Assembly: GCF_000876655.1 (NCBI RefSeq)
Contig: NZ_JYCN01000022.1
Location: 62,001 to 126,000 of the forward strand
Source of the DNA: Arthrobacter sp. SPG23
GTDB lineage: Bacteria; Actinomycetota; Actinomycetes; Actinomycetales; Micrococcaceae
Length of the DNA stretch: 64,000 nt
Reading direction: 5' to 3'
Shown here: piece after piece, positions 54,844 through 58,554 of the stretch
Numbering within the stretch: position 1 is the first letter of the stretch
How the letters are laid out: each line of letters begins with the position of its first letter
The notes under the pieces: generated by a model
The model's database searches: none
What the model was told of the DNA's origin: nothing
Seen by the model: the letters and a program-made list of their open reading frames with translations, nothing else
Program-made: the position numbers and the translations under genes

Positions 54844-54921
54844 GGAGTTTCATAGGGCATACGAATGGAACTGTCGGAAAATGAAGTTTATGATGAACTC
54901 ATAACCCTTGGAGGAGGCCCT

Positions 54922-55425
54922 GTGAGCAGCGGTGCGAAGAATATTCGGCTCGGCGCGGGAACCGAACCGCTGGACGCCATCGACGAACGGCTGCTGGCCG
55001 CCCTCGTGGATGACGCCCGCATCTCAAACAAACAGCTGGCCGAGCTCGTGGGCATCGCCCCGTCCACCGCGCTCATGCGTACCCGGGCACTGTCCGAACG
55101 CGGCATCATCCAGGGCTTCGAAGCGAAACTGAGCCTGTCCGCCATCGGCCGGTCCGTCCAGGCGCTCATCGCCGTCCGGCTCCGCGCCCACGACCGCGAA
55201 CAAATCGACCGCTTCACGTCCCGGGTACCCCGGCTCCCGGCCGTGCTCTCCACCTTCCACACCTCCGGCTCGGTGGACTACCTCCTGCACATTGCCGTGG
55301 CCACCACCGAAGACCTCCGCGACTGGGTCCTGGACAACCTGGCGACCGATCCCGTGGTGGGCCACACCGAAACCACACTGGTGTTCGAACACATCCAGGG
55401 CAACCACGGGCCGCTTCCGGACTGA
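54922..55425 (+). CDS. Lrp/AsnC-family regulator
   Basis: A 167-aa regulator. The helix-turn-helix (about residues 20-65) reads DERLLAALVDDARISNKQLA, then ELVGIAPSTALMRTRALSER. The RAM ligand domain follows (SVQALIAVRLRAHDREQIDR, then DYLLHIAVATTEDLRDWVLD). The GTG at 54922 is chosen because GGAGGAGG ends 4 nt upstream; an in-frame ATG at 54865 would put that site inside the gene. It is divergent from the trans-sulfuration gene and probably controls it. Confidence 0.87.
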   Translation: MSSGAKNIRLGAGTEPLDAIDERLLAALVDDARISNKQLAELVGIAPSTALMRTRALSERGIIQGFEAKLSLSAIGRSVQALIAVRLRAHDREQIDRFTSRVPRLPAVLSTFHTSGSVDYLLHIAVATTEDLRDWVLDNLATDPVVGHTETTLVFEHIQGNHGPLPD

Positions 55426-55478: not shown

Positions 55479-55718
55479 CTAGTGCCAGATGTAGAGTCCG
55501 GAATGCGCGGCGCCCATGATGTCGCTCCGAAGCACGTCCAGCTGCTCCCGGCGGAGCGCTGCAGCGCGTTCGCGTTCGGCCCAGTCGGAGAGAATCACCC
55601 GCCGGCGTTCGGCCCAACGGACCAGCGCGGCGCCCAGCCCGGCCGCAGCCGACTCGACGACGGTGGGCCTTCGGTAGGGGCTGCATGCAGCTGAACCGGT
55701 GGCGGAGACTGTGCTCAT
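55479..55718 (-). CDS. Small hypothetical protein coupled to the ArsR-like gene
   Basis: A 79-aa protein beginning MSTVSATGSAACSPYRRPTV. It is Arg-rich and helical in the middle (RWAERRRVILSDWAERERAA, then ALRREQLDVLRSDIMGAAHS) and ends GLYIWH. No membrane segment or known motif was found. Its ATG overlaps the stop of the ArsR-like gene (ATGA), so the two are translationally coupled; it may modulate that regulator or bind a metal through its terminal His residues. Function unknown. Confidence 0.6.
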   Translation of the reverse strand: MSTVSATGSAACSPYRRPTVVESAAAGLGAALVRWAERRRVILSDWAERERAAALRREQLDVLRSDIMGAAHSGLYIWH

Positions 55719-56476
55719 GGCACTTTCCTTTCAGGACTTTCCGGTTGTGTGTTCTGACGTTGGATGTTCTGGCGTTCTACATTCCGTGGCATGCGGGCCC
55801 GGCTTCCCGCCGATGCGGGAACGCCGAGGATGGGGAAGGCGTTCAGGTGGATCTGGACCGGGCGGGCGCCTTCCTGCTCACCTTCGTTCCTGATGTCCTC
55901 CAGCAGCCGGTGGCCGAAGGCTTCCAGGGCGCTGGTGTACCTCGCGAGCTGGTCCGCCGTGAGCCGCGCATTCGCGGTGCTGATGAGGGCGGCGTGGAGC
56001 CATTCAGCATCGAGGCTTTCGCTCCCGTGCGCCATGAAGTCCGCAAGCACGGCCTGCCTGCTGTGTTCAAACTCGCGGGTGACCAGCCTGGACGCTTCCT
56101 CTGTTGCCGGGGAAGCTGCCAGCTCCGGGGACGCGATCTGGATGGCCCCGCGCGGGCGTTCCCACCAGCGCTCCCGCGCCGTGCCTTTGCCCTCAACCTC
56201 CCTGACAAAGTCATGCTTTGCCAGTTGCCGAAGGTGGTAACTCGTGGATCCGCTGGACTCGTTGAGCAGTTCGCCCAGACTGCAGGCCGTCTGTGCCCCG
56301 TAGCGGGAGAGCATCTCAAGGATCTGCACCCGCAGGGGGTGTGCCAGTGCTTTCAGTGAGGCTGTATCGACGCGCCGCACCGGAAACGGCACATTGTCCT
56401 CAGCCGGCAGGACGGAGTCTGTGGCGCTTTCCGCGGGCGGGACTGCTGCTGGCGCCGCCTCCGGTGAACTTTTCAT
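55715..56476 (-). CDS. ArsR-like winged-helix regulator
   Basis: A 253-aa regulator. A Pro/Ala-rich N-terminus (about 35 residues) is followed by an ArsR/HTH_20 domain (LKALAHPLRVQILEMLSRYG, then ELLNESSGSTSYHLRQLAKH) with a wing VREVEGKGTARERWWERP. The C-terminal half is helical and effector-like. The last 25 residues are Gln/Asn/Arg-rich. The ATG at 56476 lies 6 nt behind TATTTT, with a -35 TTGCAA at 17 bp spacing inside the operator array, so translation is leaderless and autoregulation is likely. It lies downstream of an MFS exporter on the same strand. Confidence 0.83.
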   Translation of the reverse strand: MKSSPEAAPAAVPPAESATDSVLPAEDNVPFPVRRVDTASLKALAHPLRVQILEMLSRYGAQTACSLGELLNESSGSTSYHLRQLAKHDFVREVEGKGTARERWWERPRGAIQIASPELAASPATEEASRLVTREFEHSRQAVLADFMAHGSESLDAEWLHAALISTANARLTADQLARYTSALEAFGHRLLEDIRNEGEQEGARPVQIHLNAFPILGVPASAGSRARMPRNVERQNIQRQNTQPESPERKVP

Positions 56477-56488
56477 ACGTCCAAAATA
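56477..56488 (-). promoter_or_regulatory. Leaderless promoter of the ArsR-like gene
   Basis: On the minus strand -35 TTGCAA (56506-56511), 17-bp spacer, -10 TATTTT (56483-56488), then 6 nt to the ATG. The -35 lies within the operator repeats. Confidence 0.65.
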
Positions 56489-56490
56489 CG

Positions 56491-56554
56491 CTTGCAAAGG
56501 AACCTTTGCAAGCGTTTCTTTGCAAGCATTTCTTTGCAAGGATTTGTTTGCATC
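56491..56554. repeat. 14-bp operator array with TTTGCAAG core
   Basis: CTTTGCAAG occurs at 56504, 56518 and 56532 with exact 14-bp period, and a degenerate fourth copy GTTTGCATC starts at 56546. A first copy in inverse orientation, CTTGCAAAG (56491-56499), forms with the first direct copy the palindrome CTTGCAAAGG-AA-CCTTTGCAAG. The array overlaps the -35 of the ArsR-like gene, as expected for cooperative autorepression. Confidence 0.75.
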
Positions 56555-56629
56555 GGATTCGTGGCACGTCGACGGCGCCCCGGCGCGATCAGGAGCGCCC
56601 CGGCGCCCACCCGCGGATTTTGGTTCCGG

Positions 56630-57871
56630 TCAGACTGGCCGGCGTACTGCGGCAGCGAGCGTCACGGCAGCAAGAACGAAGGCCAGGAGGGCGCAGAGCA
56701 CTACGAATCCGGCCACTGCCGCCTGCAGCCCGTAGGCCGCCGTCGCAATTCCCAGGCCGATCACCGGCAGCGCGCTGCCAAGGTAGGTGATCACATAGAC
56801 GGTGCTGATGATCTGCGCGTGCCGCGACGCCTCCACTTTTCCGGCCACGTCGTTGAACACGGTCCGGAAGGACACTCCCTGGCCAACGCCGGCGGCCACG
56901 CTTGCGGCGATCAGCAGCCACGGGCTCGTCCAGGCGGCGGCAGCGGCAATCAGGAGTACAGACACTGCCAGCACTGCCAGGCCGGCGGGCACCACAAACC
57001 TCCCGCGGACGGCCAGCAACTGGCTGAGGGCGGAAGCGCCGAGCGTCAATCCGGCCAGCAGTCCGATGAGGGGGCGGGAATCGGCGCCGACGATCTGGGC
57101 GAAGTAGCCGGGCGCCAGCGAAAGGCAAAAGCCGAAGACGGAGAAGCTCAGGAACCCAACGGCGGAAGCCAGCCAGAAGGCGCCCCGGGCTTCACGCGAA
57201 ACGGAGGGGCGGCGGGGCGCCAGCACCTTCAGGGGCTGCGGGCCGGCGACGGACGTGATGGCGGGCCGCGCCTTGAGCAGGTACAGCGGCACCAGCATGG
57301 CGATGAGGACAACCGAGTGGAGGTAGTACGGCGTGGAGGTTGGCCCCGGCAGGAGCGAGAGGATTCCCCCGATAGCCGGGCCGGCTGCGACTCCCCCGGC
57401 GGACGCCAGCAGGGTAAAGCGTGAGGCCCAGTCGGGGCGGGCGGGCAGCAGTTCACGCAGCGCAGCGGAACTGGCGCCGGTAGCCAGGGCCACGGCGACG
57501 CCCTGGAAGGCGCGCCCCGCGGACAGCATCGCCAGGTTGTCCGCATTGGCAAAGACCAGCCCGCCGAACAGTCCCACGACCACCGCGAGCAGCAGCGCCG
57601 CCCGGCGGCCGATGTAATCGGACCAATGCCCGGCCAGCATGAGCGTGGACACAAGGGCCAGGACATAGGCGGAAAATGCCACCGTAATCCCGAACGACCC
57701 GATGCCAAGATTCGCCTGGAGCAGCGGGTACAGCGGGGTTGCCAGGTTGGCGCCGACGAGCAGCGTGAAAATCACGACGCCGGCCATCACCAGCCGCGCT
57801 GTGGTGGAAGCGTCCCATGCCCAGCCGCCGGCGGTAGCCGGACGCATGCGGAGTTCGCTGAAGACAGTCAT
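56630..57871 (-). CDS. MFS transporter
   Basis: A 413-aa exporter with 12 predicted helices. GVVIFTLLVGANLATPLYPL starts the first helix; the A-motif is HWSDYIGRRAALL. RAFQGVAVALATGASSAALRELLP (helices 4-5) suggests a drug/sugar-efflux-type protein. Substrate unknown. The start at 57871 (MTVFSELRM) has AAAGG 8 nt upstream; an in-frame ATG at 57967 cannot be excluded. It is divergent from the Lrp/CorA pair and upstream of the ArsR-like gene. Confidence 0.83.
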   Translation of the reverse strand: MTVFSELRMRPATAGGWAWDASTTARLVMAGVVIFTLLVGANLATPLYPLLQANLGIGSFGITVAFSAYVLALVSTLMLAGHWSDYIGRRAALLLAVVVGLFGGLVFANADNLAMLSAGRAFQGVAVALATGASSAALRELLPARPDWASRFTLLASAGGVAAGPAIGGILSLLPGPTSTPYYLHSVVLIAMLVPLYLLKARPAITSVAGPQPLKVLAPRRPSVSREARGAFWLASAVGFLSFSVFGFCLSLAPGYFAQIVGADSRPLIGLLAGLTLGASALSQLLAVRGRFVVPAGLAVLAVSVLLIAAAAAWTSPWLLIAASVAAGVGQGVSFRTVFNDVAGKVEASRHAQIISTVYVITYLGSALPVIGLGIATAAYGLQAAVAGFVVLCALLAFVLAAVTLAAAVRRPV

Positions 57872-57983
57872 TGTGCGTGCCTTTGCCTGCAGTGCCGGTC
57901 CTCGCCCGCTCCTTGTGGGAACGCCGCGGTCCGGGCGGAAAGAATTGATACCTACAGAATGGGTCATGCCTGAGCCTGGAGGC

Positions 57984-58032: not shown

Positions 58033-58554
58033 ATGAACCGGAGTGACGATTTGAACAGCTTGGACACCACGGACCTGAAGATCCTCCTGGAACTGATCCG
58101 GGATCCGCGGGTCCAGATCGGCGAACTCAGCGACACCCTGGGCATCGCCCGCAACACGGCGCAGTCGCGGGTCCGCCGGATGCTCCGCTCCGGCCTGCTG
58201 CACGACGGCGGACGGGAGATTGACCTCGAGGCGGTGGGGTACGACGTCGTCGCTTTCGTGACCATCGAGGTCAGCCACCGCGAACTCGACGGCGTGGTGG
58301 GCGCCCTGCGCCTGATTCCGCAGGTCCTGGAGGTCCACGAGATCTCCGGCCGCGGCGACGTCTGGTGCCGGGTGGTGGCCACAGACACCCACAACCTGCA
58401 AACGGCGCTGCGGTCGATCCTCAGGATCAAGGGCGTGATCCGGACGGAAACCGTGCTGGCGCTGCACACGCATATCCCGTACCGCACTGAGCCGCTTATC
58501 AGCCGGCTTGCCCAGGGCGGCGCGGAGGCGCCAACCCGCAAGAGACTGGGATAA
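58033..58554 (+). CDS. Lrp/AsnC-family regulator
   Basis: A 173-aa regulator. The helix-turn-helix (about residues 10-55) reads LDTTDLKILLELIRDPRVQI, then GELSDTLGIARNTAQSRVRR. The RAM-like domain follows (DVVAFVTIEVSHRELDGVVG, then VHEISGRGDVWCRVVATDTH). The start is uncertain: ATG at 58033, or TTG at 58051 which has GGAG 9 nt upstream. It ends 6 nt before the CorA gene, so both are probably in one operon; control of the divergent MFS gene is also plausible. Confidence 0.85.
   Translation: MNRSDDLNSLDTTDLKILLELIRDPRVQIGELSDTLGIARNTAQSRVRRMLRSGLLHDGGREIDLEAVGYDVVAFVTIEVSHRELDGVVGALRLIPQVLEVHEISGRGDVWCRVVATDTHNLQTALRSILRIKGVIRTETVLALHTHIPYRTEPLISRLAQGGAEAPTRKRLG

Follow-up and report, generated by a model that had tools for sequence, protein, structure and literature searches.

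Rv2034 of Mycobacterium tuberculosis, an ArsR protein, is a dimeric autorepressor that binds an inverted repeat with a 4-bp spacer located over its own promoter (PMC3338718). LugJ of Staphylococcus lugdunensis is a winged-helix repressor that acts as a dimer on a transporter operon, from which it is released by the ligand lugdunin (PMC11980582). In the window (the whole 64-kb stretch of Arthrobacter DNA analysed here), four 18-bp operators of the form TGCAAAG-N4-CTTTGCA, set at 14-bp steps, cover the promoter of an HTH_20/ArsR-type regulator gene. The inverted repeat with a 4-bp spacer over the own promoter, which is the mark of an Rv2034-like operator, is found here as TGCAAAG-N4-CTTTGCA over the -35/-10 spacer. 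The features of the locus are the following:

55479..55718, minus strand: 79-aa partner ORF, which starts on the regulator stop with a 4-nt ATGA overlap
55715..56476, minus strand: regulator gene, 253 aa (P0001); Pfam HTH_20 and HTH_5, winged helix followed by C-terminal helices
56483..56488, minus strand: putative -10 TATTTT, 6 nt from the ATG; TANNNT is kept here in homologues
56493..56510, minus strand: operator O1, TGCAAAGGTTCCTTTGCA, 14/14, full palindrome inside the -35/-10 spacer
56506..56511, minus strand: TTGCAA forming the O1/O2 junction and the putative -35, 17 bp from TATTTT; homologues have it in the same register
56507..56524, minus strand: operator O2, TGCAAAGAAACGCTTGCA, 12/14, with TGCA in common with O1
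56521..56538, minus strand: operator O3, TGCAAAGAAATGCTTGCA, 12/14
56535..56552, minus strand: operator O4, TGCAAACAAATCCTTGCA, 12/14, distal end of the ladder
56630..57967, minus strand: MFS transporter gene (PF07690, E 3e-25), upstream of the array

The MFS gene, the regulator and the ATGA-coupled 79-aa ORF lie where the earlier note on this DNA had placed them. Its 14-bp array also stands as four cores at that spacing, with starts that had been given one base too low. The palindromic TTGCAA cores start at 56492, 56506, 56520 and 56534; copies of TTTGCAAG on the plus strand start at 56505, 56519 and 56533, and an inverse copy occupies 56491-56498. A degenerate repeat, TTTGCATC, is located at 56547 and its degenerate core TTGCAT at 56548. 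The 64-kb window has three occurrences of the pattern TTGCAA-N8-TTGCAA (0.00 expected from shuffles), and the pattern is unique to the array locus in the 4.7-Mb genome (reversed-pattern control 0). When the window was scanned with TGCAAAG-N4-CTTTGCA, the sole sites scoring at least 11/14 were the four operators of the array. No second array was found elsewhere in the same genome, and operator matches with three mismatches were no commoner there than those of the control, giving no sign of a wider regulon.

The repeat unit had been taken to be an iteron-like TTTGCAAG. What holds of this reading is an operator array tied to the type of regulator; the unit itself, to judge from aligned arrays, is an 18-bp palindrome, and TTTGCAAG marks where two overlapping operators meet, with TGCA in common, TTGCAA being the overlap. 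The half-sites TGCAAAG and CTTTGCA have their centres 11 bp apart within one operator, the palindrome being centred in the 8-bp spacer. Over 91 distinct arrays, conservation of the first T of TTGCAA is 0.96-0.98 in the array interior, as compared with 0.61 in Arthrobacter and 0.36 in the others at the left end of the array; outside Arthrobacter, the right end has T in place of the final A. O4, in which the outer T of TTGCAA is missing, behaves like the array ends of homologues. Because the outer T and A of TTGCAA are lost only at array ends, the unit should be the palindrome around the spacer. A dimer site centred on TTGCAA was rejected on the same ground, as the palindromes flanking the spacer persist where the outer letters are lost. 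Replication iterons were likewise discarded: the repeats are overlapping palindromes in a regulator promoter, the assembly is chromosome-sized and none of the 3 neighbouring proteins is a Rep protein.

The promoter proposed earlier (TTGCAA, 17 bp, TATTTT, 6 nt, ATG) is correct as sequence. On the minus strand, TTGCAA (56511-56506) is followed after 17 bp by TATTTT (56488-56483) and after 6 nt by the ATG at 56476, so that transcription of the regulator gene would start without a leader. A scan with the sigma-70 consensus scored this promoter too weak for detection; the layout TTGCAA-17-TANNNT-ATG is nevertheless found again in homologues. In these, the most palindromic operator is the promoter-proximal one, which falls between the -35 and the -10. 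Conservation of C and T in its CTTTGC half-site amounts to 0.84-1.0, whereas the same C and T vary in the array interior. The weak consensus match, together with distal operators that reach upstream of the -35, could suit an activator, O2-O4 recruiting RNA polymerase and the array serving as an activating platform. This appears unlikely, as the -35/-10 spacer contains the best operator, TTGCAA doubles as the -35, the -10 falls within the last operator in part of the homologues and the characterised relatives that were found are repressors.

Close homologues were collected by tblastn and pattern searches, yielding 110 loci, some of which are the same species drawn from two collections, with 91 distinct arrays. 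The earlier note had proposed a search for these repeats beside the same type of regulator in other genomes, homologous loci lacking them being what would speak against it. At least one operator precedes the homologous gene in 110/110 of these close loci, and the repeats recur in 28/29 distant ones (see below). Two or more operators in register are present in 87/91 distinct arrays, the number per array ranging from 1 to 5. Spacings between consecutive exact TTGCAA cores are 14 bp in 159/162 cases and 28 bp in 3/162, the latter being limited to cases of a degenerate middle core; if one mismatch is allowed, 262 pairs lie at 14 bp and 0-1 at 13 or 15. These figures indicate, at the level of sequence comparison, that the 14-bp step is under selection. 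The distance from the last operator to the start codon is 17/18 bp in 51 arrays and 3/4 bp in 24 arrays. As these two classes differ by one period, the promoter may have slid by one ladder unit in some lineages, a TTGCAA-like core being kept as the -35.

A triple-core pattern was found in 11 of 395 sampled genomes of the class (reversed-pattern control 0); a gene of the family lies directly 3' of it in ten of them and about 1.4 kb off in the remaining one (G337). In 13 genomes, perfect sites are concentrated at the locus of the regulator itself. Within the genus the occurrence is patchy (34/150 genomes). A one-mismatch operator-like TGCTAAGCAGGCTTTGCA is located away from the regulator in two related genomes (G000:C10:169352 and G059:C1:2492297). 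Two loci bear unexpected labels, probably through contamination or misnaming: L099, labelled Stenotrophomonas maltophilia, resembles a Microbacterium locus, and L086, labelled Sphaerisporangium, resembles Cellulosimicrobium.

The regulator scores 34.6 bits with HTH_20 (cut-off 27) and 30.4 bits with HTH_5 (cut-off 22), as compared with 40.5 bits, below the cut-off of 55, with the ArsR/SmtB metalloregulator model NF033788. The ELCVCDL-type cysteine metal site is absent from P0001, whose single cysteine lies in TACSLGELL, and no cysteine is invariant in the family alignment (A1). The AlphaFold model (pLDDT 84) consists of a winged helix, then a long helix and then two more. Invariant residues of the recognition helix and wing are S79-YHLR-L85 and GTARERWWE (98-106). 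The nearest fold in the PDB is 4g6q (Kfla_6221 of Kribbella flavida; E 3e-5, 19-20% identity).

The family is far from local, since the A1 regulator profile matches 112/247 sampled genomes of the class. Distant relatives were picked by their similarity to A1, and the proportions of ladders given here hold for HTH_20 members selected by this profile. Of 29 loci taken from the best-scoring ones, most of them from other genera, 28 show a 14-bp chain, and chains at 12, 13, 15 or 16 bp are absent from all. In a further sample of 100 lower-scoring A1 members, 51 retain a TGCAAAG-type ladder. The other 49 were examined with a motif-free score that combines palindromes with a direct repeat at steps of 10-22: 14 bp is the best step in 25 of them and significant in 19, and 13 bp is the best in 5, while 14 bp was chosen in 8/200 control windows from the same loci. 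This score is biased to 12 bp (59/200 control windows), which makes single-locus steps of 10-12 bp unreliable, and it gave another step to 9/51 known 14-bp arrays. The divergent cores are TTGCGCAA, TTCGCGAA/TTTGCGAA, TTGGCCAA, TTTCGAAA and TTGTACAA, and their junctions are still self-palindromic. With a spacer of 3 the step is usually 13, following the rule that the step equals the spacer plus 10. Ladders of 13 bp, partly with 3-bp spacers, lie upstream in L215, L219, L238, L272 and L286. Upstream of the regulator in L223, GAAG/CTTC inverted repeats are found at 22 bp, not 14.

Cores and recognition helices change together. The helix SSG(S/A)TSYHLRQ goes with TTGCAA, (V/P)SLVSYHLRK with TTGCGCAA, NSGTASYHLR with TTCGCGAA, SSASASYHLRQ with TTGGCCAA and SPSSCSFHLR with TTTCGAAA. 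In a comparison made at 28-45% identity outside the helix, which controls for relatedness only roughly, regulators that share a core have a helix identity of 0.80 (607 pairs), and those that differ in core one of 0.53 (1391 pairs). L219 and L286 combine a 13-bp step with TTGCAA cores and a helix of the TTGCAA type, indicating that core and step are separable. There is thus strong comparative evidence that the ladder would be bound by the neighbouring regulator. It is extremely improbable that the repeats instead serve the MFS gene as a terminator or RNA element: their palindromes do form terminator-like stems (3 vs 0.5 expected), but the stems with T tails lie on the plus strand, opposite to that gene; a match in Rfam is absent, arrays are present whatever gene is upstream, and an RNA element would explain neither the 14-bp period nor the covariation of core and helix.

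The 79-aa ORF, which the earlier note had described as coupled to the regulator gene, is a genuine, selected partner of the latter: median dN/dS in frame is 0.15 for the 79-aa group and 0.26 for a 75-aa group, against 1.3-2.2 in the other frames. In 74/80 loci the stop of the regulator gene overlaps with or touches an ORF of 62-102 aa, and such a small ORF adjoins nearly all Micrococcales homologues. The order is reversed (array, small ORF, regulator) in five loci, and a profile of the small protein (A2) finds three of these five ORFs (L102, L105 and L107; E 3e-9 to 7e-5). The 79-aa protein gave no significant match in Pfam, and its model is one helix spanning residues 20-73. An amphipathic or membrane-binding helix was considered and dropped, the hydrophobic moment being not above that of shuffles. 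The likeliest guess is that the protein modulates either the regulator or an exporter. In four Streptomyces loci (L121, L122, L157 and L159), an ORF of 60-74 aa with a RLGWTLVEVGLRLA-like motif lies 3' of the regulator; the A2 profile does not recover those of L121 and L122, and no homology is claimed.

A DNA-binding first gene, a small second gene and an autorepressed operator with multiple sites recall a toxin-antitoxin module, as do the 4-nt overlap, the fast evolution of the small second protein and the patchy occurrence in the genus (34/150 genomes). Such a module is nonetheless very improbable here, given that syntenic positions are stable in Arthrobacter and Microbacteriaceae, that other lineages have an MFS exporter as second gene and the order is swapped in some loci, and that no toxin or antitoxin domain of Pfam or NCBIfam was detected in either gene.

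The neighbourhood varies between lineages. In Arthrobacter (loci L034-L060) the gene order is MFS, array, regulator and small ORF. About 10 loci of Microbacteriaceae have the array followed by the regulator, the small ORF and then an abutting MFS gene (Pfam-confirmed), while in another family of the class the regulator and an MFS gene overlap by 4 nt (11 genomes). The upstream region holds ABC exporter genes in L102, L105 and L112. The association with exporters thus recurs, the exporters differing between lineages. The MFS gene of the window was rejected as a target of the regulator because no operator is located upstream of it (best score 8/14). As this gene lies upstream of the array and lacks an operator, the window system may have no cargo other than the regulator and the small protein. 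Lrp/AsnC-like genes (54865-55425 and 58033-58554 in the window) flank the block formed by the MFS gene, the array and the regulator and recur in almost every Arthrobacter locus.

Comparison of the loci shows an array of fixed step, its linkage to the regulator, covariation of core and helix and a real small ORF. The reading that best accounts for them, and which we regard as probable, is that the array is the autorepressor operator of the adjacent regulator, bound by dimers on overlapping palindromes; dimeric binding, repression, cooperativity and release by a ligand are the steps that we infer. The process could be pictured as follows. One dimer would bind each 18-bp TGCAAAG-N4-CTTTGCA palindrome, with both recognition helices on one face of the DNA, because the centres of the half-sites are about one turn apart. 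The overlap of neighbouring palindromes by TGCA would fix the 14-bp step, which amounts to about 480 degrees, that is, a 120-degree turn, three steps making 42 bp or four turns. A dimer on the perfect palindrome O1, over the -35/-10 spacer, would block RNA polymerase, and O2-O4 would cooperatively add dimers and steepen the response. A ligand would then free the repressor, raising the synthesis of the regulator and its coupled small protein, plus that of the exporter where it belongs to the operon.

Simultaneous occupancy of all operators may be sterically impossible, because dimers that share TGCA would have half-site centres 3 bp apart in one groove. Neighbours could therefore exclude each other, with dimers on every second site (28 bp), and the extra sites would increase the local concentration and make repression graded, with no need for an unbroken spiral of protein. 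The lack of any parity preference among arrays of 1-5 operators would allow such a partly filled ladder. The strict 14-bp step, with 28-bp spacings confined to degenerate middle cores, suggests on the other hand that neighbours matter to each other. We consider this alternation a serious possibility, to which we would give a little under half the weight; it competes solely with the cooperative filling, not with the rest of the autorepressor reading. A 120-degree step that comes back in phase after 42 bp would suit a helical polymer, and the sharing of TGCA could equally force alternation. The autorepressor reading can be extended, tentatively and with slightly less than even confidence, to a large family of winged-helix repressors in actinobacteria, whose dimers would sit on palindromes every 14 bp (13 with a spacer of 3) and form a helical polymer of three dimers per four turns. 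This rule, set by the protein, would outlast changes of helix and letters, making the sites predictable.

Operator arrays, autorepression and inverted repeats with a 4-bp spacer are all of known kinds. The cassette had been put forward as an undescribed small regulatory system, and no description of it was found in open-licence papers, nor one of a winged-helix family with a fixed, overlapping 14-bp ladder and interchangeable cores. If true, the present reading would provide an operator grammar for common, barely characterised actinobacterial regulators, in which the geometry is fixed and the letters change. It would also make the link between recognition helix and core visible. Sites of the family could be predicted from sequence alone, which would help in tracing what triggers exporter operons in antibiotic producers and soil bacteria, and engineers would have at hand a series of repressors matched to their operators by nature.

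Rv2034 resembles the window system by its winged helix and by an operator of inverted-repeat-N4 type covering its own promoter. It differs by having one palindrome and no ladder, with CCGTAAGT half-sites, and by its size of about 15 kDa, without the long C-terminal helical region of the window regulator (PMC3338718). LugJ can be likened to the latter through its paper, which cites 4G6Q, the best fold match here, and differs by the single palindrome reported and by its ligand lugdunin (PMC11980582). Kfla_6221 (4g6q), although the closest solved fold, is described as a protein of unknown function with no known operator. Rv2034 and LugJ support dimeric binding and autorepression by analogy only. 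A structural question is raised by the ladder itself, namely how two dimers of a winged-helix protein could occupy the four common base pairs together, or whether they take turns. Repressor dimers that assemble helically on tandem operators are known from the met-box arrays of MetJ and the heptad arrays of the Omega repressor. These are ribbon-helix-helix proteins on units of 8 or 7 bp, whereas the window system would place a winged helix on overlapping palindromes.
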